Below are positions 15,517 to 30,440 of a DNA stretch of 36,689 nt, piece by piece (the first letter of the stretch is position 1; each line of letters begins with the position of its first letter). The translations under genes were made by a program, and so were the position numbers. Origin of the DNA: an uncultured Lachnospiraceae bacterium. Its GTDB lineage: Bacteria; Bacillota; Clostridia; Lachnospirales; Lachnospiraceae. The notes below the pieces were generated by a model. It searched no databases and was not told where the DNA came from. It worked only from the letters and a program-made list of their open reading frames with translations. The stretch spans positions 1 through 36,689 of the forward strand of contig CAMBAN010000016.1 in assembly GCA_945864145.1 (NCBI GenBank). The letters run 5' to 3'.

Positions 15517-17523
15517 CTAATGTTTACTATTACGTTTTGTATACTTTTTGATAGCTCCGAGCAAATTTTCTCTATTAATAGGTTTCCCAATGTGATCATC
15601 CATGCCGGCTTCATAGGATTTCTTCACATCTTCCGGAAAAGTATTGGCTGTCACTGCAATAATTGGTACTCTTTTAGCATCTCTTCTGTCTAAAGCTCTG
15701 ATTTCTCTTGTTGCTTCTAAACCATCCATAACCGGCATCATGATATCCATCAAAATCATATCAAATTCGCCATCTGCCGAATTTTCAAAGGTATCTACTG
15801 CCAGCTGACCGTTTTGTACCGCCGTAACCTCAATATTCGCACTTTCCAGAATGAACTGCGTAATTTCAGAGTTGATTTCATTATCTTCGACCAGTAATGC
15901 TCTCATACCTGCGACATCTGCTTCCTCTTCCTTTTCCGGTTCTTCCGCATTTCTGACATTTGTGTCACTAATAAGCAATGGTAGACAAATACAGACACTA
16001 CTTCCAACATGCAGCTTACTTTCTACAGAAATCGCACCTCCCATTTCTTCCACTAAACGCTTTGCAATTGACATACCAAGTCCGGTTCCTTCAAAGGTAG
16101 TCCTTGCATCTCCATGCTCCTGCGTAAAAGGTTCGAAAATGTGTTCAACAAATTCTTCACTCATGCCAAGTCCGGTATCCGTAATCATAATCTGGAAACT
16201 GCTTCGTTTCTCTGTCAGTATTTTTTCTGATACTTCAATGTGAACCGTACCGTTTTCCCGATTATACTTAATGGCATTTCCCACTGTATGGAATAAAACC
16301 TGTCTGACATGTGCCGGACTGCCTAATACTCTACTATGTATGACCTTTTTGGTATCAATAACAAACCTTACCTGTAAAGGATTGTCATAACACTTTACAG
16401 CTTCTACCAGTTGAATAAGATCAAATGCCTCTTCTGTAAGACAGGAAATACCATTTTCGAGTTTACTCATCTCCAAAACGTCATTCAAAATGGATAAAAG
16501 CTGTTCTGCTGACGCCCTGATTTTTTCCATATGCTCATGATGCTTTGCTTTTTCTACCTTTTCTGAACAATCCATATCTATCATACCCAAAATTCCATTA
16601 ATCGGTGTTCTGATATCATGGGACATACTGGATAAAAAGCGAGTTCTTGTACGATTTGCCTGCCTTGCCGTTTCCAGGGCTTCTTCCAGTTTTCTTTGAT
16701 AATCCAGCTCTTGTTTTTTCTCTTCATCAATATGCTGTGTTACATATAATACTTGTACCACATCATTATTTTCATCTCTCTTTGCATCTACAAAATTTGC
16801 CCTGCTCCAACCGGATTCAATGCCAATAAATTCATGACTGACAATATTTTTATCCTTCATGCGCTCTTTTAAAGTCGATAAGTCCACAAATCTTCGCATT
16901 TCATCGTTATAATCCGCTACAATCAGCTTATCACACATCACATTTAAATAATACTGGGCGTCCCCTTCTTTGGGAATGTACCTCTGCACCTTTTCCACAC
17001 TCGTAATTTCTACTGCTTGTCCCGTTATCAAATCTATCCGATATTGTGCATAATAAATATTACTCAAGGCATCAATAATTTCTATTTTATCTAATAACGC
17101 CTCATTTGTTGTTTCCAACTCAATGGCTTCCTTTTTTTCCTCTGTGATATCCCACAAAAAAATCATGACATAGCCTGGCTTGTATTGCGTGCACTGCAAT
17201 TTCAAATATTTTTTTACATTCGTGTCATAGATTTCATCCTGATAGGGTGTATTTGCAATTGCAACATACCGCAGCATATTGAAATACCGGTCAAATTCCG
17301 GTCTGTGATGCATGATTTCCCGTAAGGTAATTTTCATCAATAATGTCTTAGGACAATGCACGGTATTTTCAAATGGATTATTTACATATACAGCTCTAAA
17401 GTCAAACGTACCACCTGGCATTTCCATATATTCAAAGATACAGACACCTAGCGGCATATTGTCATAGTATTTAATCATTCCCTGGTAAGTTTCTTCATCA
17501 AAATTTTCATAATTTGTCGTCAT
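15517..17523 (-). CDS. Soluble hybrid sensor histidine kinase/response regulator
   Basis: 668 residues with no membrane helix. Order: PAS-like region (about 15-130), a second PAS-like region (150-265), HisKA with the phospho-accepting H302 (SMSHDIRTP), an HATPase domain with N, G1 (DTGLGMS) and G2 (GTGLGMS) boxes, and a C-terminal receiver with phospho-acceptor D593 (ILMDIMMPVMDG). There is no output domain and no partner regulator alongside, so the receiver probably passes phosphate to a distant protein. The ATG at 17523 has only a distant AAAGG. It is transcribed alone. Confidence 0.9.
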   Translation of the reverse strand: MTTNYENFDEETYQGMIKYYDNMPLGVCIFEYMEMPGGTFDFRAVYVNNPFENTVHCPKTLLMKITLREIMHHRPEFDRYFNMLRYVAIANTPYQDEIYDTNVKKYLKLQCTQYKPGYVMIFLWDITEEKKEAIELETTNEALLDKIEIIDALSNIYYAQYRIDLITGQAVEITSVEKVQRYIPKEGDAQYYLNVMCDKLIVADYNDEMRRFVDLSTLKERMKDKNIVSHEFIGIESGWSRANFVDAKRDENNDVVQVLYVTQHIDEEKKQELDYQRKLEEALETARQANRTRTRFLSSMSHDIRTPINGILGMIDMDCSEKVEKAKHHEHMEKIRASAEQLLSILNDVLEMSKLENGISCLTEEAFDLIQLVEAVKCYDNPLQVRFVIDTKKVIHSRVLGSPAHVRQVLFHTVGNAIKYNRENGTVHIEVSEKILTEKRSSFQIMITDTGLGMSEEFVEHIFEPFTQEHGDARTTFEGTGLGMSIAKRLVEEMGGAISVESKLHVGSSVCICLPLLISDTNVRNAEEPEKEEEADVAGMRALLVEDNEINSEITQFILESANIEVTAVQNGQLAVDTFENSADGEFDMILMDIMMPVMDGLEATREIRALDRRDAKRVPIIAVTANTFPEDVKKSYEAGMDDHIGKPINRENLLGAIKKYTKRNSKH

Positions 17524-20725: not shown

Positions 20726-20744
20726 AATCTGCCAAAAGTTACCC

Positions 20745-22025
20745 TTAGCAGGCTTTCAATACTTCCTCTATTTCTTCCGCTTTCTCACTTTTACTATCCT
20801 GTTTTACCGTTGCATGGAACAGTATGATACCAATCACAAAAAATATAGAAATCATACCTACCCCCATGTTCACATTTCCTGTCAGTTGTGATACCACACT
20901 GACAACTGTCGTTCCCATAAAGGAAGCGCCCTTTCCGCAAATATCCAGAAGTCCAAAATATTCTCCAGATTGTTCTGCCGGAATAATCTTAGTAAAATAA
21001 GAACGTGACAACGCCTGAATACCACCCTGGAACATACCTACAAAAACAGCAAGTATCCAAAACTGCGTCTGCGTAGTTAAGAACATAGCAAAAACAGCAA
21101 TACCAAGATATGCAACAATGCATACCATAATCAGCTTATCTGTAGAAAACTTCTGTGCAAGTCTCCCAAACAGAATTGCAAACGGAAAAGCCACAAACTG
21201 TGTAACAAGGAGCGCAAGCAACAATCCTGTGCTGTCCAGACCCAAAGCTGAACCATACGCAGTAGCCATATCTATGATGGTATACACACCATCTATATAA
21301 AAGAAAAACGCCAACAGGAACAGGAATACCTTCTTTTCCTTTCTCACATTACACAAGGTTACACCAATGCGCTTAAAACTTTCTGCGACAGCATGTGGTT
21401 TTCTTGCCACATAGTATTTCTGACGATAGCTTCTCATTAATGGCATAGACATAGCAATCCACCAGACAGCTACGATTCCAAAAGAAATAGCCATGGCAAG
21501 TTCCATGCTGATACCAAGTGCATCTGCACTAAGCACTAAGCCTAAACATAAAATAAAAGGAACACAGCTTCCAATATATCCCCATGCAAACCCCTGTGAA
21601 GAGATTTCATCCATCCTGTCTTGGGTTGTAACGTCAGAAAGCATGGAATCATAGAAAATCAAGCTTCCGGAAAAACCCACCTTCGCAATCACAAATATAA
21701 TCAAAAACACCAGCCATTGCTGTGCCAGCCCCAAGGCAAGACAGCCAATTGCACCAATAAAAATAGTTATCATAAAAAGTGGTTTTTTATATCCTTTTGT
21801 ATCGGAAAATGTACCAAATACCGGTCCTATAATAGCTACAAATAATGTTGCTATTGATGCTGCATATCCCCAGTATGCCATGTATTCCACATCTGACAAG
21901 CCGGCATTTCCAGCCAGATAATTAAAATAAATAGGTATCATCGTAGATACAAGCAACATAAATGCTGAATTACCTACATCATATAACACCCAGTTGCGTT
22001 CTTGTTTTGTGAGTTTTTTCTTCAT
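20745..22025 (-). CDS. UMF1-type MFS transporter
   Basis: 426 residues, about twelve membrane helices. The start KLTKQERNWVLYDVGNSAF and the FYDSMLSDVTTQDRMDEISS segment identify the UMF1/Atg22-like branch of the major facilitator superfamily. AGGAG precedes the ATG. It is the third gene of the phospholipase C - glycosyltransferase operon, 12 bases after the latter. Bacterial members have no agreed substrate; export or recycling of a product of the lipid enzymes is conceivable but only inferred from the operon. Confidence 0.88.
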   Translation of the reverse strand: MKKKLTKQERNWVLYDVGNSAFMLLVSTMIPIYFNYLAGNAGLSDVEYMAYWGYAASIATLFVAIIGPVFGTFSDTKGYKKPLFMITIFIGAIGCLALGLAQQWLVFLIIFVIAKVGFSGSLIFYDSMLSDVTTQDRMDEISSQGFAWGYIGSCVPFILCLGLVLSADALGISMELAMAISFGIVAVWWIAMSMPLMRSYRQKYYVARKPHAVAESFKRIGVTLCNVRKEKKVFLFLLAFFFYIDGVYTIIDMATAYGSALGLDSTGLLLALLVTQFVAFPFAILFGRLAQKFSTDKLIMVCIVAYLGIAVFAMFLTTQTQFWILAVFVGMFQGGIQALSRSYFTKIIPAEQSGEYFGLLDICGKGASFMGTTVVSVVSQLTGNVNMGVGMISIFFVIGIILFHATVKQDSKSEKAEEIEEVLKAC

Positions 22026-22037
22026 ATTATCTTTCTC

Positions 22038-23192
22038 CTACGCTTTCTTTCGTAATCCCAATTGATGTATTTCAAGAACCTCGTCATAGGATTGCATAAG
22101 CATCTCCAACACGCTGTCCCAGCTTCTGCTTCTCGCTGTGGTAAGTGCACCTTCTCTGATTTTTTCCCGAAGCTCCGGGAAACTGCTCGCTACCAGGATT
22201 GCATGCGCCAATGCCTGTGTCTCTCTGTAAGGTACTACATATGCATTTTTGCCATGCTCCGTAAAATCTGTCACACCGCCCTCATCCGTACAAATGCAGG
22301 GAAGTCCACTTGCCATTGCTTCAAGAAGCACATTTCCAAAGGTTTCCGTTCCTGATGGAAACACAAACAAGTCACTGTCGGCATAAAGTTGGGCAAGACT
22401 TTGCCCTCTTACAAATCCTGTCAGCTTTACATTATCGATGCCACTATTTTCTAATATTTCTCTGTAAGGGCCGTCTCCGGCAAACACAAAAACCAGCTTA
22501 TCCTGATGTTTCTCATTGAGTTGTCTGATCGCTTCCAGATAATCCCCAAGTCCTTTTTCATAAGACAGTCTACCTACATAAAGGCAGATAAATTTATCCT
22601 TACCATATTTTTCACGCCAGTTTCCTGTTCTCTTCTCCGGGGTATAAAGCAAGGTGTCCACTCCTCTTGTCCATACGTCAAGATTTTTATAATTTTGCAG
22701 GCTTAACTGCTGTAATGTCTGATTAGACGGGCACAGATTCAGCTCTGCATAACTGTGAAAATGCTGAAAATATGCTCTGACAGGCTTTTCTAACAGCTTC
22801 GCATGAAAATACTCCAAATATTGTTCTATATTGGTATGATATGACATCACAACAGGAATTCCCATTTCTCTTGCAATACGAAGCCCTTCATTTCCCATGG
22901 TAAATTCTGTTACAATGTGTATCAAATCCGGTTTAAATTCTTCTATCTTTTTTTTAATGATATAGTGATGAATCATCGTGACAGCAAGTCTACTGTTAGG
23001 TGCAAAAGGAATTTGTACGCCTTTAAAGCGCACAACATTTTCTTCTTCCTCGATATCTTCATTCTCATAATCCGGTGTAAAGAAGATATGTTTGATTCCC
23101 CTTTTATTCAAGAAAGCATGAAGCTTAGAAAGTGTATTGGCAACGCCATTGATTTCAGGAAAAAAAGTATCTGTAAAATATGCAATCTTCAT
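22038..23192 (-). CDS. GT4 glycosyltransferase, SQD2/MgtA-like (probable diacylglycerol glycosyltransferase)
   Basis: 384 residues from ATG 23192, which has GGAG seven bases upstream. GT-B fold: the N-terminal half has IAYFTDTFFPEINGVANTLS, the PDLIHIVTEFTMG block and SYHTNIEQYLEYF. The C-terminal half has GRLSYEKG and the retaining-enzyme motif ETFGNVLLEAMASG. The N-terminal pattern, with RGVDT at the domain joint, is that of plant/cyanobacterial SQD2/SqdX and actinobacterial MgtA, which glycosylate diacylglycerol or lipid-linked sugars. It follows a phospholipase C gene (diacylglycerol producer) by 21 bases, behind a PHO-type promoter. Lipid as acceptor is inferred. Confidence 0.82.
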   Translation of the reverse strand: MKIAYFTDTFFPEINGVANTLSKLHAFLNKRGIKHIFFTPDYENEDIEEEENVVRFKGVQIPFAPNSRLAVTMIHHYIIKKKIEEFKPDLIHIVTEFTMGNEGLRIAREMGIPVVMSYHTNIEQYLEYFHAKLLEKPVRAYFQHFHSYAELNLCPSNQTLQQLSLQNYKNLDVWTRGVDTLLYTPEKRTGNWREKYGKDKFICLYVGRLSYEKGLGDYLEAIRQLNEKHQDKLVFVFAGDGPYREILENSGIDNVKLTGFVRGQSLAQLYADSDLFVFPSGTETFGNVLLEAMASGLPCICTDEGGVTDFTEHGKNAYVVPYRETQALAHAILVASSFPELREKIREGALTTARSRSWDSVLEMLMQSYDEVLEIHQLGLRKKA

Positions 23193-23213
23193 TGTAGTCT
23201 CCATCCTTGCTTA

Positions 23214-23867
23214 CTATCTGTTCACATACATATAGTTTGCTGCCTGCTCAATTTGTGAACCCACAACACCAATCATTCCCTCTATAGTCTGAAGCTGTGG
23301 TATCATCACAGGCTGCGGTAATTTTTGTTTTTCCTGTTCTTTGCGTTCGAATGCTCCTATAAAACATTGTGCAAAAGCATTTGCTGCTTTCATAATATAT
23401 TTTGTATCTGTTTCTAATCCCTTTTTCTGTCGCAAATAATCATCATGAAGAACCTGCAAATACATAAATAGCATATCAATCGAAGCAGAGTGCATATCCA
23501 TTCCATTGATACAATCAAAAGAAGTTTTCTCACACTGAAGATATGCTGTCAAATCTCTTTCGTATATCACATGTGCCAAAAGCATTCCCGGAAAATCCTT
23601 ACTATGCGGATACGTAAAATAATCTTCCACATAATGAAGCAGATATCCCAGTTTAAAGCAGGACCATCTATTCATATGCCCATGCTCCCAAAGTCTTTCC
23701 ATGTGAATACTGTTCCTGTCAAAAGTAGTATCCCATGTATGTCCTCTCAGATAAGTGTGGAACAGCAAATCCGGTGCAATGCTCCCCAATTTTATCCAAA
23801 ATCTGTATTTTGCCAATAATTCCACTGTTACACTTTTGGTAATAAATAAATGACCATTTTTATTCAT
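23214..23867 (-). CDS. Zinc-dependent phospholipase C family protein
   Basis: 217 residues, no signal peptide, so probably cytoplasmic. The trinuclear zinc-site pattern of the clostridial alpha-toxin family is visible: H6, D33 (SIAPD), H78 and D82 (HYVED), H88 (TYPH), H99 and E103 (HVIYE). The spacing 78/82/88/99/103 closely mirrors 126/130/136/148/152 of alpha-toxin. It lacks the lipid-binding C2 domain and the export signal of the toxins, so an internal lipid-turnover role is more likely than virulence. GGAGGGG precedes ATG 23867. A PHO-like box lies upstream, and the glycosyltransferase and MFS genes follow in the operon. Confidence 0.82.
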   Translation of the reverse strand: MNKNGHLFITKSVTVELLAKYRFWIKLGSIAPDLLFHTYLRGHTWDTTFDRNSIHMERLWEHGHMNRWSCFKLGYLLHYVEDYFTYPHSKDFPGMLLAHVIYERDLTAYLQCEKTSFDCINGMDMHSASIDMLFMYLQVLHDDYLRQKKGLETDTKYIMKAANAFAQCFIGAFERKEQEKQKLPQPVMIPQLQTIEGMIGVVGSQIEQAANYMYVNR

Positions 23868-23949
23868 CGTTCACCCCTCCATGAACACTTCCCTTTATCT
23901 ACTTACTTTTCTTTACATAAAAATCTTAGCATGATAAAAACAGTCATTC

Positions 23950-23988
23950 TATCAGAGAGGCATAAAATCGACGTAAAATGTACGTAAA
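23950..23988 (-). promoter_or_regulatory. PHO box in front of the phospholipase C operon
   Basis: On the minus strand four hexamers at an exact 11-bp period: TTTACG (23988-23983), TTTACG (23977-23972), TTTATG (23966-23961) and CTGATA (23955-23950). This matches the TTnACA-N5 repeat of Firmicute PhoP sites. A TATCAT -10 candidate follows 13 bases later (23936-23931), about 64 bases before the phospholipase C start. Confidence 0.7.
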
Positions 23989-23991
23989 CCT

Positions 23992-26436
23992 CTATAAATG
24001 GATTTTCTTTTTCCGTGCAAGCTGTAACTTTACATTATCATAACGATATCTCCTGACCGCACCTGTAGCTGCATATATGACACATCCATCAGAAAATGCT
24101 TCTATATCATCACAGTGTTTCTTTAACTCGTGTGCATCAGAGATACGCTGTATACCGCATTCATGTGCTCCATTGTAGGAGGGTGCAAGACTTTTCGCCT
24201 GGGGGACAAACGCCTGATACAATTTCATAACATTACCGGTTCCGTTTGTAGGATAATGTCGTTGTTTTCCATAATAGGTACCAAAAGGATTTAAACTAAT
24301 CTGTCGACAATCCTCCTTTGTCCGAAGTCGCATAGGACAATGCGCCATACTGCCAAGCACTTGTCTTGCATGCGCAAGAACAATGCCCTTTTCCCCATCT
24401 CCTACGGTAAGAAACCCTCCCGTAAGCTGATGATTAAAGGAATCCATATTCTTATTCTCCGGATAAGCATTCCAAAAATCTGACAAAGCATATCCACTGA
24501 TATCATCCATAAAATTTCTTTTTTCCACAAACGCACAGTCTTTCATGGAAAGGGTAAGCTCCATAGGAACAACTTCGTTCCAGGACAAGTCACTGTATCT
24601 CTCGAGCTTTGAAGCAATAGCATGTAGCTCATCTTTTTCTCTTGTATAGGGGTACTGTATTTGTGATACCAGGTAAATACCATTTTCTCCTTCCATGACA
24701 AAAAAGCAGAATACATAATACCCCGCCTTTTCTTCTCCCGGTAAATGTATCTCACCACGAAAAGTAAGCGCCTGTCCGTTTCCTGCTACTGCTGTTTCTG
24801 TAATCTCCGGCTTAGCAAAAGATGTCTGTCGCCCACGATAGGTAAGAAAGCTTTTCCAGCTTGCAAGCATTTCTCCTTCTCTTGTACAGAAAACAGGAAA
24901 GCCTGTTACCGTATCAACTGTAAGCGTTGTTCCATACTTATCCTGCAATATCAACGATGTATGATGATTTGCTTTTTTTTCAGATTGCTTTATTTTAAAG
25001 GAAAGTCTGTATTTCTTTTTGATAGTTTCAAAGCGGCAAAGCAGATAAATTCCTCTAACACTTCCATCTTCCCAGTAGTCTGTTGCAACTGCGGTGAAGC
25101 TGACAAGTCCATCTCCTTTTACTTTTAAGTCCTGCATACGACTGCAAAATCCTTCCTGTAAAAGAAGCTGTGTACCAATCAGGGAAGATGCATTGCTGTT
25201 TTTGATCCAGATTTCATTTTCTTTCTGAAAGGTATGGTTCTTACTTTCCCATTTTTCTTCCAGCGCTTTTTCCTCTTTTTCTATCATAACAAGAGAAAGT
25301 TCTTGTGCTACATTCTCTCTCGTCACATTTAATACCGGGGAAGCGAGCCCAAAATGTGTGGTTGATAACAGTCTGATACGCTCCTCAAAAGATGGGGACA
25401 TACTATCCGTTCCATATAATCTTGCATACATCCTTGCACGCTCAAGCCTTGTCCATATCAGTCTGTTAAACGGCTTTTCTCCCCAGCTTGCATAACCTGA
25501 AAAGTTTCCATCAGCCACATCTTCTCCAAAAGATATCTCCGCTACCGGCTTATGCATTCTCAGATATCTTCCCGGTGTAGTGAAAACAACATAATCCAAA
25601 TCTGCAATATCTGTAATCATGCCTTCCAGTCCATTTGCTCCCGGTATATGACGCCTTATTCCCTTTGGTAATAAAAAGGGACCCCACAATACACTATCCG
25701 CATCAATATTGATAAATAAAAATACATCCCTTTTGATTTCTCCGTTTACTTGTTTTTCATGTAAAGCTGTTACCAGCTTCCGGATACCACCTGCATCCCA
25801 AAGGTCAGCCGGGGAGTACATAGGCAATATAGTAATTTCATCCTTCTGATAACGGTAGGTCAGCGGATTATACGCCTGTTCCGGTGTTAAGGGGGAAATA
25901 ATTGTCCGAAACGCATCAAAAGGCACACAGCTATAATATAAGCATACTGTGTGAATACCTGCTTCTTTATACAAAGCTGCCTGAGAGGGTGTAAACATGA
26001 CCTCCTGAGGGCGAATGATTCTTTCACATGCACCAAACACATCACATAGGACACTGCCTTTTTCATTTGTTATCGCCCGTTGTACAGAAGTCAGAAACTC
26101 TTCTCTTGTCATCGCGCTCATAGCACCATTGTTATAGCCCATCAGAATGTTTTCATCTCCATACTGCTCCTGTCTAAGCCTCACATTTTTAATAATATCC
26201 GGTGCATGCTCCGGCAGTATCTTTTCAAGGGTATATGCATTTTCAAAGTCCCATGTTCCCTTGACAGGAATACCCTGTTGATTGCAACGATTCAGCGTAT
26301 CTATCTCATAACGGAGCAGACGTATATCACTTCCAAATCCCTTGTCATCACAGGTATCCCCCCGATAGGAATGATAACAGTTTACATGAAATCCAAAGCC
26401 TACATGTACCGCATATTCATCCGTTTTCACTTGCAT
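23992..26436 (-). CDS. Large GH57/GH38-like (glycoside hydrolase/deacetylase barrel) protein, tentative
   Basis: 814 residues from ATG 26436; an ATG at 26472 is in frame but lies further inside ppk1. The N-terminal 300 residues resemble a glycoside hydrolase/deacetylase beta-alpha barrel: FHVNCYHSYRGDT, WDFENAYTLEKILPEHAPDI, then RPQEVMFTPSQAALYKEAGI, a layout seen in GH57/GH38 enzymes where an acidic residue in such a block is catalytic. The middle and C-terminal parts look like beta-sandwich domains (KGDGLVSFTAVATDYWEDGS). There is no signal peptide. The start overlaps the ppk1 stop by 20 bases, so it is translationally coupled and shares the PHO-type promoter. I cannot assign a substrate. 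Confidence 0.65.
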   Translation of the reverse strand: MQVKTDEYAVHVGFGFHVNCYHSYRGDTCDDKGFGSDIRLLRYEIDTLNRCNQQGIPVKGTWDFENAYTLEKILPEHAPDIIKNVRLRQEQYGDENILMGYNNGAMSAMTREEFLTSVQRAITNEKGSVLCDVFGACERIIRPQEVMFTPSQAALYKEAGIHTVCLYYSCVPFDAFRTIISPLTPEQAYNPLTYRYQKDEITILPMYSPADLWDAGGIRKLVTALHEKQVNGEIKRDVFLFINIDADSVLWGPFLLPKGIRRHIPGANGLEGMITDIADLDYVVFTTPGRYLRMHKPVAEISFGEDVADGNFSGYASWGEKPFNRLIWTRLERARMYARLYGTDSMSPSFEERIRLLSTTHFGLASPVLNVTRENVAQELSLVMIEKEEKALEEKWESKNHTFQKENEIWIKNSNASSLIGTQLLLQEGFCSRMQDLKVKGDGLVSFTAVATDYWEDGSVRGIYLLCRFETIKKKYRLSFKIKQSEKKANHHTSLILQDKYGTTLTVDTVTGFPVFCTREGEMLASWKSFLTYRGRQTSFAKPEITETAVAGNGQALTFRGEIHLPGEEKAGYYVFCFFVMEGENGIYLVSQIQYPYTREKDELHAIASKLERYSDLSWNEVVPMELTLSMKDCAFVEKRNFMDDISGYALSDFWNAYPENKNMDSFNHQLTGGFLTVGDGEKGIVLAHARQVLGSMAHCPMRLRTKEDCRQISLNPFGTYYGKQRHYPTNGTGNVMKLYQAFVPQAKSLAPSYNGAHECGIQRISDAHELKKHCDDIEAFSDGCVIYAATGAVRRYRYDNVKLQLARKKKIHL

Positions 26437-28462
26437 TTTTGTATGCTCGTTCCATAAAGTATTCCTGTGCATTGATTTTCCCCTCTTTGCCCTTTCTTAC
26501 ATACGTGCCATCTATCTGCTGTCTTGCTTTTACATCATCTGCAAGATACACGGAAAAGTCTTCTAAGATTCTGTCCTTTATTGCTTCATCATAAATAGGA
26601 GCTGCCACTTCAACACGCTTGATTGTATTTCGAGTCATAAAGTCAGCCGAGGCAATATAGACCTTTGCCTCTTTCTCTTTCCCAAATATATAAATACGGG
26701 AATGTTCCAAGTATCTTCCTACAATACTGATGACCTCAATATTGTCTGTTTTCCCTTCTATTCCTGCAAGCAGACAGCAAATTCCTCTGACAACCATCTG
26801 TATCTTTACGCCTTTCTGACCTGCTTCTATTAATTTATCTATCAGCACCTTATCCGTAAGAGAGTTTAGCTTGAGACCGATGTATCCTTGACCGCCGTCT
26901 TTCACTTTATCTATTTCTCCCTGTATCAAATCAAGGATTTTATTACGCAGACAATTCGGTGCGACCAGCAAATGTGTTGTCTCATCTACCGTTCTTCCCA
27001 TCGACAGACAGTTAAAAATCATACCTGCCTCTACGCCAATTTCTGACATGGATGTCATGAAAGTATAATCTGTATAAATTTTAGAGGTTTTCTCATTATA
27101 ATTTCCTGTACCAATCTGTGTAATATACTCGATTTGTTCCTTTCCCTTTCTGGTAATCAGACAAAGCTTGGAGTGTACCTTCAAATGACTCAGTCCATAA
27201 ATCACACGACAGCCTGCATCCTCAAGCTGCTTAGACCATCGAATGTTGTTTTCTTCGTCAAATCGTGCACGTAGCTCTACAAGCACAATAACCTCTTTTC
27301 CGTTTTCCGCAGCTTCCACCAGTGCTTCTACAATTTTCGAATTATTGGCAAGACGATACAATGTCATCTTGATAGATACCACTGCAGGATCGCTTGCTGC
27401 TTCATTAAGCAAATGTAAGAATGGTCTCATACTCTCATACGGATAAGACAAAAGGATATCCTTTTCCTTAATCTGTTCTATCATAGAGCGCCTTTCTTCT
27501 ATCATAGGAGATTTCTGTGGTATACGTCTCTCAAAGAACAGTTCCTTTTGGTCATGCAGTGTATCCTGTATCTGAAACAGGAAAGATAAATTTAGTGGTG
27601 CCTCAGAATGATAAATCTGACTTTTATTTAACATTAAATAATCACACATTCTGACAATGATGGAATCATCCATCACGCGGGTAAAGTAAAGCTGTAAAGG
27701 TGCCAGTCTTTTTCTTGTCTTTAGCACCTCCTCTACAGCCTTTCTATAATCATCTTCATCGTCACCTACTGCCTCATCCACATCTATATCTGCATTTCTC
27801 AGAATGCGAATCAATGACTTACTCTCCACCAGATAACGGTCAAAAATTTCTCCTACAAAGTGTAAAATCAGCTCTTCCATCAGCATAAATCTTCTGCCAT
27901 CTGCTGACACAGGAATTACTCGCTTCAATACACCATTACTACAGGGAATAATACCTATTTTTTTATTATTGGACTTTGTTTTCAATTCCACTACCGCATA
28001 GATTTCCTGATTTTTCAAAAAAGGAAAAGGCTGTCTTTTTCCCACAATCTGTGGAGACAAGAAAGGTCTTACCTCCTGCTCGAAATATTTCCATACCTTA
28101 TCCTTTTCCTCTTCTGTCAAATCGTTGAAGCGAAGCTCTCTCACACCATAGGTTTCCAGCTCCTTCATCAAACCTTCATATATATTATCCTTATACTCCA
28201 AAAGTTTTTTTATCTCTTTTCCGATTTCTGTCAATTGCTCCTTGCATGTCATTCCTGTCTTATTTTCTCTTGCCTCTGAAAACTCTCCGGCATGAAGGGA
28301 ACCTACTCTTACCATCGTAAACTCATCCAGATTGCTCTGAAAAATAGATACAAAAGAAAGTCTTTCACAAAGAGGATTGCGTTTATCCTCTGCTTCCTCT
28401 AATACTCTCTTATTAAATTTTAACCATGACAGTTCTCTGTTGTCGTACAACATTTTTTCCAT
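26417..28462 (-). CDS. ppk1: Polyphosphate kinase 1
   Basis: 681 residues from ATG 28462, preceded by AAAGGAG eight bases away; the in-frame ATG at 28504 would sit at the predicted transcription start. It makes polyphosphate reversibly from ATP. The start YDNRELSWLKFNKRVLEEA is the PPK1 N-domain. The phospho-accepting histidine is H430 (SHLKVHSK) and the second active-site histidine is H587 (YLEHSRIY), close to E. coli 435 and 592. TQIGTGNYNE and LRARFDEENNIRW are further signatures. First gene of an operon with the GH-like protein, behind a PHO box. Confidence 0.95.
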   Translation of the reverse strand: MEKMLYDNRELSWLKFNKRVLEEAEDKRNPLCERLSFVSIFQSNLDEFTMVRVGSLHAGEFSEARENKTGMTCKEQLTEIGKEIKKLLEYKDNIYEGLMKELETYGVRELRFNDLTEEEKDKVWKYFEQEVRPFLSPQIVGKRQPFPFLKNQEIYAVVELKTKSNNKKIGIIPCSNGVLKRVIPVSADGRRFMLMEELILHFVGEIFDRYLVESKSLIRILRNADIDVDEAVGDDEDDYRKAVEEVLKTRKRLAPLQLYFTRVMDDSIIVRMCDYLMLNKSQIYHSEAPLNLSFLFQIQDTLHDQKELFFERRIPQKSPMIEERRSMIEQIKEKDILLSYPYESMRPFLHLLNEAASDPAVVSIKMTLYRLANNSKIVEALVEAAENGKEVIVLVELRARFDEENNIRWSKQLEDAGCRVIYGLSHLKVHSKLCLITRKGKEQIEYITQIGTGNYNEKTSKIYTDYTFMTSMSEIGVEAGMIFNCLSMGRTVDETTHLLVAPNCLRNKILDLIQGEIDKVKDGGQGYIGLKLNSLTDKVLIDKLIEAGQKGVKIQMVVRGICCLLAGIEGKTDNIEVISIVGRYLEHSRIYIFGKEKEAKVYIASADFMTRNTIKRVEVAAPIYDEAIKDRILEDFSVYLADDVKARQQIDGTYVRKGKEGKINAQEYFMERAYKNASENG

Positions 28463-28524
28463 TGCTCTTACTCCTTTTGGATTCTGTTTTACATAGTTTT
28501 GCATATTAAGTGTACGAATTATCC

Positions 28525-28563
28525 GGAAAAGTTTCTATCAAGTTTCTGTAAAATTCATGTAAA
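28525..28563 (-). promoter_or_regulatory. PHO box in front of ppk1
   Basis: On the minus strand four hexamers at an exact 11-bp period: TTTACA (28563-28558), TTTACA (28552-28547), TTGATA (28541-28536) and TTTTCC (28530-28525). Ten bases later comes TACACT (28514-28509), a fair -10. The predicted transcript starts near 28502 and gives a leader of about 40 bases to ATG 28462. Confidence 0.75.
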
Positions 28564-28566
28564 AAT

Positions 28567-28614
28567 AGTGCATGCCGGCGCATGCACTTTGCAAGAATTT
28601 CTGCGAAATTCTTG
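28567..28614. repeat. Tandem pair of perfect palindromes
   Basis: Hairpin 1: AGTGCATGC (28567-28575), loop CGGC, GCATGCACT (28580-28588). Hairpin 2: CAAGAATTTC (28592-28601), loop TGC, GAAATTCTTG (28605-28614). They lie upstream of the ppk1 PHO box and outside the predicted ppk1 transcript, so they are more likely a protein-binding or REP-like element than an RNA leader. Confidence 0.6.
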
Positions 28615-29378: not shown

Positions 29379-30440
29379 TTAAATTTTCTCCGATGACTTT
29401 CTATAATCGGCAAGTTCCTTGCGCATTCTTTCGATTTCATCATCCTTCTTACCAAGCTGGGTAGTTAGTTCATCAATTTTGTTCTCCTGTTGTTCCAGCT
29501 TGTTCTCCTGTTGTTCCAGCTTGTTCTCCTGTTGTTCTATCTTGTTTTTCTGTTGTTCCAACACGCTTTTCTGCTGTTCCAACACGCTTTTCTGCTGTTC
29601 CAACACACTTTTCTGCTGTTCCAACACACTTTTCTGCTGTTCCAACACGCTTTTCTGTTGTTCTATCTTACTAGCCTGCTCATCAATTATATTCTGTGCA
29701 CCGCGCATATCGGCATAGTAATCTTCTCTATCGCGACAACGTTTTCGGACAATTTCATCTGCAGATAATTCAAACAGTGTATTTGAAGCTTCTTTAAAGT
29801 ATTCATCCTGTAATGCCATTTCCTTAATCTCCTCCCATGTAGTAGATTTAAAGAGTTTAGCCCAATGGTCTATGTTATACTGCCTGTCTTCCTCTGTAGC
29901 TAACTCTGCATGATTTAAGTCTAGCACATTTAGCTGGAAATTGTTACTGTATATTTTGTGAGTTTTAGTATTCATCATCTTATAGTGCGCATAAAATTCA
30001 GGAGAATCCTTGAATAAAGTGAAATCAAGTATACCGATATGTATTGCTGCCTTCACTTCGTTGTAGGCCTGACCTTTATTAAGCTGGTCAAAGGAACGAC
30101 ACAAATAGCTTAAGGATCTGTTTTCCCAATTGCCAAGGTTTACGACCTGCATTTCAAGATTGATTTTTTTGTTTGTGTTAAGTTGCACGTTGATATCTAA
30201 TCTAAATTCCTTGTCAGACAAAACTTCTCCAATAATAATGGGATCCATAATGACAACCGATACTATTTCTTCCTGTGAAAGATGTAACAACGAACCTATT
30301 AATCCACGAAGAACCTTCTCACTCTTCTGCAATACCGCCCTAAACATGTAATCATTAGTCAATCCATAAGGAATTTTGCCAGTAGCTTCTTCCAGACTTT
30401 TAAATATCATTTCTTTTTCTTCGGTAGTTTTTTCTTTCAT
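29379..30440 (-). CDS. Rpn-family recombination-promoting nuclease (PD-(D/E)XK transposase family), probably frameshifted at its 3' end
   Basis: 353 residues. The N-terminal nuclease domain opens with YGLTNDYMFRAVLQKSEKVL and carries the PD-(D/E)XK residues D82 (LDINVQL) and E96-x-Q98 (NLEMQV). Residues about 255-335 are a heptad-repeat coiled coil (units SVLEQQK and NKLEQQE). The reading frame stops at 29379. A second frame continues without a break to TAG at 29260 and reads as plausible coding sequence (LKRLREAKSLLDKDVQEYL). One A lost from a run near 29385 would explain this. Rpn proteins are DNA endonucleases linked to recombination and phage limitation. It lies downstream of an XRE gene in the same direction. 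Confidence 0.85.
   Translation of the reverse strand: MKEKTTEEKEMIFKSLEEATGKIPYGLTNDYMFRAVLQKSEKVLRGLIGSLLHLSQEEIVSVVIMDPIIIGEVLSDKEFRLDINVQLNTNKKINLEMQVVNLGNWENRSLSYLCRSFDQLNKGQAYNEVKAAIHIGILDFTLFKDSPEFYAHYKMMNTKTHKIYSNNFQLNVLDLNHAELATEEDRQYNIDHWAKLFKSTTWEEIKEMALQDEYFKEASNTLFELSADEIVRKRCRDREDYYADMRGAQNIIDEQASKIEQQKSVLEQQKSVLEQQKSVLEQQKSVLEQQKSVLEQQKNKIEQQENKLEQQENKLEQQENKIDELTTQLGKKDDEIERMRKELADYRKSSEKI
29479..29670. repeat. 21-bp tandem repeat inside the Rpn gene
   Basis: About nine copies of a 21-base unit, in two subtypes: TTCTCCTGTTGTTCCAGCTTG-like and TTCTGCTGTTCCAACACGCTT-like, given here on the plus strand. Each encodes one coiled-coil heptad. The central copies are nearly identical, so copy number can probably change by slippage without shifting the frame. 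Confidence 0.9.

Follow-up and report, generated by a model that had tools for sequence, protein, structure and literature searches.

Candidate PHO-type operators before a polyphosphate kinase operon and a phospholipase C operon in a Lachnospiraceae bacterium

Could two neighbouring operons of an anaerobe, one headed by a polyphosphate kinase gene (ppk1) and the other by a phospholipase C gene, be switched on together when phosphate is scarce, and would their products then serve a single purpose? The question is raised by a stretch of 36,689 nucleotides from an uncultured Lachnospiraceae bacterium (contig CAMBAN010000016.1 of assembly GCA_945864145.1, hereafter the window, or contig C16), in which each of the two operons follows a run of hexamers that resembles a PHO box, the binding site of the phosphate regulators PhoP and PhoB. 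The source assembly comprises 2.98 Mb in 205 contigs and is 83% complete. The block lies on the minus strand and consists of ppk1, a frame of 826 codons for a large protein, a gap of 124 bp, and then the genes for phospholipase C, a GT4 glycosyltransferase and a carrier of the major facilitator superfamily (MFS). The end of ppk1 and the 826-codon frame overlap by 56 bp, and the gaps within the second operon are only 9 bp (phospholipase C to GT4) and 12 bp (GT4 to the MFS carrier).

The same motif occurs at the pstS promoters of the genus and at genes for fused sodium/phosphate cotransporter and PhoU proteins (Na/Pi-PhoU) that immediately precede phoP, and Pho control is therefore the best reading of the two operators and very likely for both operons, as an earlier note on this DNA had proposed. 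Judged from these promoter sequences, the two operons are likely switched on together by PhoP at low phosphate, through the operator that they share with pstS and the phoP-linked Na/Pi-PhoU genes.

The two operators and their counterparts at phosphate genes

Both operators are direct repeats with an exact period of 11 bp on the minus strand. The operator before ppk1 reads, from 28563 down to 28525, TTTACA-TGAAT-TTTACA-GAAAC-TTGATA-GAAAC-TTTTCC, while that before the phospholipase C gene reads, from 23988 down to 23950, TTTACG-TACAT-TTTACG-TCGAT-TTTATG-CCTCT-CTGATA. The earlier note had described two runs of four hexamers, and their positions and period are borne out; the four boxes are not equal, however, for one element of each run is a TGATAG. 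This element (TTGATAG or CTGATAG) is probably the -10 box, a fit that leaves the ppk1 operator with two good boxes and the phospholipase C operator with three. The sequence NNGATAG was present in 7 of 16 promoters measured, each time at one of two offsets from the first scored box, 22 or 33 bp, and TGATAG stands in phase at 4 of the 5 operon heads that carry ppk1 of the kind found in the window (window-type ppk1), being missing in genome G035.

In Bacillus subtilis, the consensus hexamer for PhoP is TT(A/T/C)ACA. The scan matrix was a PhoP-type hexamer with weights set by hand from that consensus after both sites were known, and an operator was counted as present where two boxes scored at least 12 within 300 bp of a start. 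When both strands of the window were scanned with this matrix, the two operators ranked first and second.

By this measure, the repeat is present at 16 of the 19 pstS loci of the genus. The loci come from 18 genomes and from 26 PstS rows, of which two fragments in G029 (L201, L211), a weak match in G031 (L212) and four second matches to genes already counted (L207, L209, L210, L213) were dropped; of the three misses, those in G003 and G025 are weak matches under the family cut-off, and that in G010 scored barely below 12. Among other genes the repeat was found in 6 of 247, or in 3 of 244 after subtraction of three second copies of Na/Pi-PhoU heads; a first null set had included pstS duplicates, and the later one used here excluded them and retained the three Na/Pi-PhoU duplicates so subtracted. 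Window-type ppk1 operon heads carry the repeat in 5 of 5 testable genomes, the upstream region in G007 being lost at a contig end, and the box is kept although the proteins of G020, G029 and G030 are only 54–56% identical. The other ppk1 paralog had two boxes at 1 of 25 loci, that one from another family of the order, and three boxes at 2 of 25, as measured in the 300 bp before the gene itself rather than before its operon head (26 loci, L165 having no upstream sequence; 8 of the 25 are from other families of the order). In the present genome, the other paralog lies on contig C14 and has no box.

Na/Pi-PhoU genes directly preceding phoP, all reached via PhoP, carry the repeat in 4 of 4 genomes (G020, G029, G030, G035). 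Addition of G031 and of a fragment on contig C167 of the present genome, where the box lies 40 bp before the Na/Pi cotransporter gene, gives 6 of 6 Na/Pi-PhoU heads, which is not an independent count, because it was a motif or family search that first brought up several of these genes (the C167 fragment and those of G029, G030 and G035). The pstS loci and both ppk1 paralogs were chosen by gene, and the pstS, ppk1 and PhoP-linked counts are independent of those for Na/Pi genes. Further heads were chosen after or via the motif, namely phospholipase C (2 of 2) and the large protein in G020 (1 of 1); the heads of the G029 operon, of the G020 large protein and of the G393 operon were chosen once the scan had been seen. 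The spacing is specific as well, as the 11-bp period scores 30 of 33 targets, and twelve other periods (7–10 and 12–19 bp) score from 0 to 6 of 33.

If the operators work as their layout suggests, phosphorylated PhoP would bind the repeats head-to-tail, substitute for a -35 element and recruit RNA polymerase to the TGATAG -10 box.

The three boxed genes left in the null set are a small gene of no assigned function (G035), an undecaprenyl-phosphate-translocase-like gene in G031 (PF04018; L217:2815-3774), whose PHO-type box hints at Pho-controlled recycling of a lipid carrier, and a choice-of-anchor I gene in G393 (L287:6472-9084), which has its own PHO-type box and lies divergent to a phospholipase C operon. 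In G020, a gene for a hydrolase of the HAD type (L244) and one with CHB_HEX_C_1 and Fn3-associated domains (L256) have boxes together with an in-phase TGATAG and are likely additional Pho genes.

Table 1. Positions of genes, candidate operators and terminator-like hairpins in the window
Feature	Position	Strand	Evidence
ppk1, second polyphosphate kinase paralog of the genome, 695 amino acids	26417..28504	-	TIGR03705, 756 bits (cut-off 466)
826-amino-acid protein of an unannotated family, predicted GH57/GH38-like fold	23992..26472	-	reading frame, predicted model
Zinc-dependent phospholipase C family protein, 217 amino acids	23214..23867	-	PF00882, 55 bits (cut-off 27)
GT4 glycosyltransferase	22038..23204	-	nearest curated families are lipid glycosyltransferases
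MFS/Atg22-like membrane carrier	20745..22025	-	family match
PHO-type operator before ppk1	28525..28563	-	hexamer runs, matrix scan, shuffles, in-phase TGATAG
TTTACA	28558-28563	-	
TTTACA	28547-28552	-	
TTGATAG (probable -10)	28535-28541	-	
TTTTCC (poor fourth hexamer)	28525-28530	-	
PHO-type operator before the phospholipase C gene	23949..23988	-	hexamer runs, matrix scan, shuffles, in-phase TGATAG
TTTACG	23983-23988	-	
TTTACG	23972-23977	-	
TTTATG	23961-23966	-	
CTGATAG (probable -10)	23949-23955	-	
Terminator-like hairpin directly upstream of the ppk1 operator, T tail entering the first box	28567..28588	-	pattern match only
Terminator-like hairpin closing the phospholipase C-GT4-MFS operon	20729..20751	-	pattern match only

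Gene neighbourhoods, gene products and a possible lipid pathway

Granted Pho control, do the five genes belong together? In G020, a single contig carries, within about 12 kb, a boxed relative of the large protein, a boxed phospholipase C-ppk1 pair and a boxed Na/Pi-PhoU-phoP-phoR series. Window-type ppk1 follows an HD-domain gene behind boxes in G030 and G035, and a PhoH-type gene plus an HD gene behind boxes in G029. In G393, a genome of another genus of the same family, a phospholipase C-MFS-phospholipase C series lies behind TTTACA-ATAACA-TTTACA boxes, and its MFS carrier is 75% identical to that of the window. Relatives of the phospholipase C were found in 27 of 392 genomes of the order.

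Some findings speak against the joint reading. The gene partners of window-type ppk1 vary among species; a GT4 match lies beside phospholipase C at the window's own locus only (29 loci, with flanks of at most 1.5 kb); neither ppk1 nor phospholipase C was found near relatives of the large protein at any of the best 80 of 159 loci, 41 of which reach more than 5 kb on both sides; and in other genera the large protein's relatives have two boxes scoring at least 12 before them in 1 of 79 cases, with crude start positions. Within the genomes searched, the exact five-gene set was found in this genome alone, and its Pho wiring is common to relatives. The module proposed in the earlier note accordingly stays a candidate one: window-type ppk1 keeps its box in the 5 testable genomes but swaps its partners, and the GT4-phospholipase C pair is seen here only.

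There is, in fact, nearly an even chance that the genes are each under Pho control yet are mere neighbours, brought together by local clustering of the Pho regulon and forming no joint module, an explanation favoured by the differing partners of the boxed window-type ppk1 in G020, G029, G030 and G035. Against it, the families of the large protein, the phospholipase C and the window-type ppk1 occur together in two species, in differing order. A pattern search of the region listed no terminator-like hairpin between the large gene and the phospholipase C gene (9 matches in all, with 4.6 expected), so that some transcription may continue from the ppk1 operon into the second.

Several neighbours in this and other genomes are worth recording. 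The HD-domain protein directly before window-type ppk1 in three species has about 220 amino acids (L184:7260-7931, L185:8683-9339, L186:9878-10534) and is a possible hydrolase partner acting on polyphosphate or nucleotides. The window-type ppk1 of G035 (C39:63848-65806) is divided between two frames, and the match contains a TAG in frame. The large-protein relative of G020 is split over three successive frames (L183:3561-5228), a sign of gene decay or else of faulty assembly. In the window itself, a gene for a PDDEXK nuclease/transposase of the Rpn family lies upstream of the ppk1 block (29379-30440), and a hybrid sensor kinase with a receiver domain lies a few genes away from the block (15517-17523).

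What, then, might each product do? The window PPK1 is a full-length family match above the curated cut-off. Alignment with the solved enzyme 1xdo shows that LKVHSK and YLEHSRIY are kept, the histidines of which we take to be the equivalents of E. coli His435 and His592. One point weighs against the proposed role: in 5 of 5 window-type PPK1 proteins aligned, Gln replaces the His before GTGN(Y/F) (GTGNY in the window copy). The corresponding His, presumably the equivalent of E. coli His454, is present in 8 of 8 aligned proteins of the other paralog and in 1xdo. With this replacement, the balance between synthesis and use of polyphosphate may differ, and window-type PPK1 could be a functionally shifted subfamily.

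The large protein, whose start may lie about 12–20 codons further in, as its homologues suggest, gave no Pfam match at 0.001, and thus no sequence-family match to the glycoside hydrolase (GH) families GH57 and GH38, and only chance-level matches to PDB structures by sequence. Its predicted model (predicted local distance difference test score of 84) has a fold in common with GH57, of which 1k1x is presumably a member, and with GH38, at 13% and 10% identity, respectively. A simple hydropathy scan gave no membrane segment. Among 7995 scored candidates, 979 were database relatives; the best 120 listed have no precomputed Pfam domain, and the closest named ones come from Roseburia, Lachnospiraceae and further genomes, most of them clostridial, which in itself makes it probable that the organism belongs to the Clostridia. 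On the strength of the predicted model, the protein represents an unnamed, widespread family with a glycosidase fold. The first operon would therewith provide a second polyphosphate kinase dedicated to the Pho response and a cytoplasmic protein of glycosidase fold, and phosphate would be stored as polyphosphate.

For the phospholipase C, PF00882 is the sole Pfam match, and an identity with PlcP, a metallophosphoesterase, did not emerge. No hydrophobic segment was found by a simple hydropathy scan, and no solved structure matched at E≤1. An alignment of 16 proteins shows that the window copy has the expected pattern of His, Asp and Glu metal ligands, which we take to be the zinc ligands of the family, and from its sequence the protein looks like a short, cytoplasmic member of PF00882. 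The two best models for the GT4 enzyme, GlcN-PG synthase (147 bits) and MGlcDAG synthase (141 bits), both score under their cut-offs. Comparison of the MFS carrier with solved chains by sequence gave none at E≤0.01, and thus no link to LtaA, in a search that can miss distant relatives.

On the model of PlcP-Agt and UgtP-LtaA, the second operon would lead from phospholipid by way of diacylglycerol to glycolipid in the outer leaflet. The phospholipase C would cleave phospholipids to diacylglycerol, the GT4 enzyme would glycosylate this diacylglycerol, and transport of the resulting glycolipid through the membrane to the outer leaflet would fall to the MFS carrier, so that sugar lipids would replace phosphate-rich membrane lipids and lipid phosphate would be freed. 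From the gene families, lipid remodelling by the second operon has about an even chance of being right.

A smaller though still substantial chance is that Pho control is real and the second operon serves another task, such as the handling of envelope polymers or sugars. This would suit a GT4 enzyme scoring far under the curated cut-offs of lipid glycosyltransferase models, a carrier with no solved relative by sequence and no link to LtaA, and a phospholipase C match of a mere 55 bits. That the two best glycosyltransferase models are nevertheless lipid enzymes, that the expected metal-ligand pattern is present in the phospholipase C, and that in another genus the same carrier stands, behind PHO-type boxes, with a phospholipase C gene on either side all speak for lipid remodelling.

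The regulator, a rival regulator and chance

A PhoP orthologue (at least 45% identity, the query's own genome counted) is present in 10 of 13 genomes of the genus. The three in which none was found, this one (83% complete), G007 (66%) and G013 (78%), are the three in the set below 85% completeness. In G016, G026 and G031, phoP lies downstream of pst, as it does by coordinates in G009 and G010; G016 and G026 have the series from pstS to phoU and then a regulator and a kinase, and G031 has the regulator and kinase a few genes past pstS. The order Na/Pi-PhoU-phoP-phoR, each time behind a box, is found in G020, G029, G030 and G035. Among curated models, PhoB came first for 3 of 3 PhoP-type regulators tested, and PnpS first with PhoR second for 2 of 2 partner kinases tested, all under the curated cut-offs. 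As a separate observation, the placement of phoP and phoR behind a Na/Pi-PhoU fusion and not behind pst in four species (L318, L319, L320, L183) raises the prospect that the phosphate sensor may couple to the transporter.

The reading of Pho control has several facts to contend with. No PhoP orthologue was found in the present assembly, whose best response regulator is 41% identical to a relative's PhoP, and a search of the assembly for PstC and PstS gave no PstC over the cut-off and no PstS; PhoU matched only within a Na/Pi fusion. Three Na/Pi cotransporter genes have their start assembled here; those on C11 and C157 lack the box, which is seen on C167 only. The boxes of G029 and G030 lie about 280 bp before the first start. 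An in-phase TGATAG is present in 0 of 6 Na/Pi promoters, so that the Na/Pi and ppk1 promoters are constructed somewhat differently. Bare motif counts are no better: exact TTTACR-N5-TTTACR pairs number 8 in the genome and 8 in the reversed control, and 40 over six genomes with 44 in the control, and a looser three-box scan falls below its control (246 + 225 vs. 342 + 355).

Regarding the regulator, the earlier note's reading presupposed a PhoP homologue, for which the assembly came out empty; it is only 83% complete, however, and the boxed Na/Pi gene on C167 ends at the contig edge, directly behind which phoPR would be expected. As for the motif at known Pho genes, it is present in relatives at the counts given for pstS and Na/Pi-PhoU, and in this genome at one of three Na/Pi genes, no pstS having been found. 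A regulator on C105 is among two of ten scanned with PhoB as the best NCBIfam model; it is only 35–41% identical to the PhoP of four relatives and for that reason was not taken as PhoP.

It is improbable that the repeats instead bind a different regulator of the OmpR type, in the first place WalR (YycF), and that the operons would thus be under cell-wall control. The WalR consensus is TGTWAH-N5-TGTWAH; TTTACA reads TGTAAA on the opposite strand, so the reverse strand of TTTACA-N5-TTTACA fits this consensus, and a YycF-like regulator is encoded on C37 (best NCBIfam match YycF, 260 bits with a cut-off of 340). The boxes, however, precede pstS and the Na/Pi-PhoU genes before phoP, genes that serve phosphate rather than the cell wall, and the PhoP-type regulators tested put PhoB first, all of which argues for Pho control.

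Since bare counts show no enrichment, the case for Pho control stands on position, the in-phase TGATAG and conservation. In the window, TTTAYR pairs with at most one mismatch number 9, with a chance mean of 6.7. A pattern of boxes plus TGATAG matches this genome twice, each time in the window, with 0 matches in the control; as the pattern was derived from the two window sites, their matches are expected, whereas the lack of further matches in the genome is not. Over ten genomes, the same pattern gave 6 matches against 4 in the control. Of the eight exact pairs in the genome, those on C4, C50 and C173 lie inside reading frames, and 2 bp separate that on C27 from the frame that follows. At the pair on C73, the next-best bare site, no frame of at least 80 codons begins in its direction. 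That the two operators are accidents of AT-rich sequence in the two gaps between genes, as the equality of exact pairs with the reversed control might suggest, is very improbable, given that only 1 of 200 dinucleotide shuffles reached the best score and none of 200 the second, that the spacing is specific for 11 bp, and that the box persists before orthologous ppk1 operons whose proteins have diverged so far.

Relation to known systems and meaning

Pho control of ppk, PHO boxes of 11 nucleotides, and PlcP-glycosyltransferase operons with Pho boxes are already known elsewhere. Two sources (PMC4415409, PMC7866108) describe PHO boxes as 11-nucleotide direct repeats bound by OmpR-type PhoB or PhoP, whose targets include pst and ppk, in E. 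coli, B. subtilis and Streptomyces, and the ppk of Streptomyces as linked to pst and having PHO boxes. The system described here is alike in its 11-nucleotide direct repeats, in the PhoB/PhoP-type regulator of its relatives and in its likely pst and ppk targets, and differs in its TTTAC(A/G) box, in the in-phase TGATAG of several promoters, in the Na/Pi-PhoU-phoP-phoR linkage of four relatives, and in that only one of two ppk1 paralogs is boxed.

The nearest parallel to the second operon is PlcP-Agt, where the genes for a phospholipase C and a glycosyltransferase lie side by side downstream of a predicted Pho box, according to work on marine bacteria (PMC4796936) and Pseudomonas aeruginosa (PMC8528852); a title in the reference list of the latter calls PlcP a metallophosphoesterase. 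Phospholipase C and glycosyltransferase genes behind a predicted Pho box are common to both; here, however, the phospholipase belongs to the zinc-dependent family PF00882, the glycosyltransferase is a GT4 enzyme, and an MFS carrier is added. In Staphylococcus aureus, UgtP (YpfP)-LtaA is described (PMC11237490) as a glycolipid synthase and a membrane carrier in one operon, an arrangement matched here by a putative glycolipid synthase and a carrier, with no sequence link found to a solved carrier such as LtaA and with phospholipase C and Pho boxes added. PMC13170248 likewise describes NptA of S. aureus, with its C-terminal PhoU domain, as a Na/Pi-PhoU fusion that is PhoPR-dependent; the fusion is alike, and in four relatives here phoP and phoR lie directly behind the gene.

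A full-text literature search found no Pho regulon described for Lachnospiraceae, and a search on Pho terms with Clostridia or C. acetobutylicum showed no such cluster in the titles and abstract openings. In the literature searched, no paper was found that links zinc-dependent phospholipase C, glycolipid and phosphate starvation, and the words Firmicutes and Clostridi- are absent from the main text of PMC4796936. Tentatively, and with somewhat less than an even chance, Clostridia of this group may combine a Pho-controlled lipid-remodelling operon whose components have no kinship with PlcP-Agt (a PF00882 phospholipase C of the cytoplasm, a GT4 glycolipid synthase and an Atg22-like MFS flippase) with a Pho-dedicated PPK1 of altered active site, the two wired together by PhoP operators and the housekeeping PPK1 being left outside the regulon.

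Taken for what it likely is, the motif defines the PHO box by sequence in a group of likely Clostridia for which no described Pho regulon was found. If the lipid reading is true, these anaerobes would spare phosphate by means convergent with the PlcP-Agt systems of marine bacteria and proteobacteria. Moreover, with one polyphosphate kinase under Pho control and the other not, what polyphosphate does during starvation could be tested directly.

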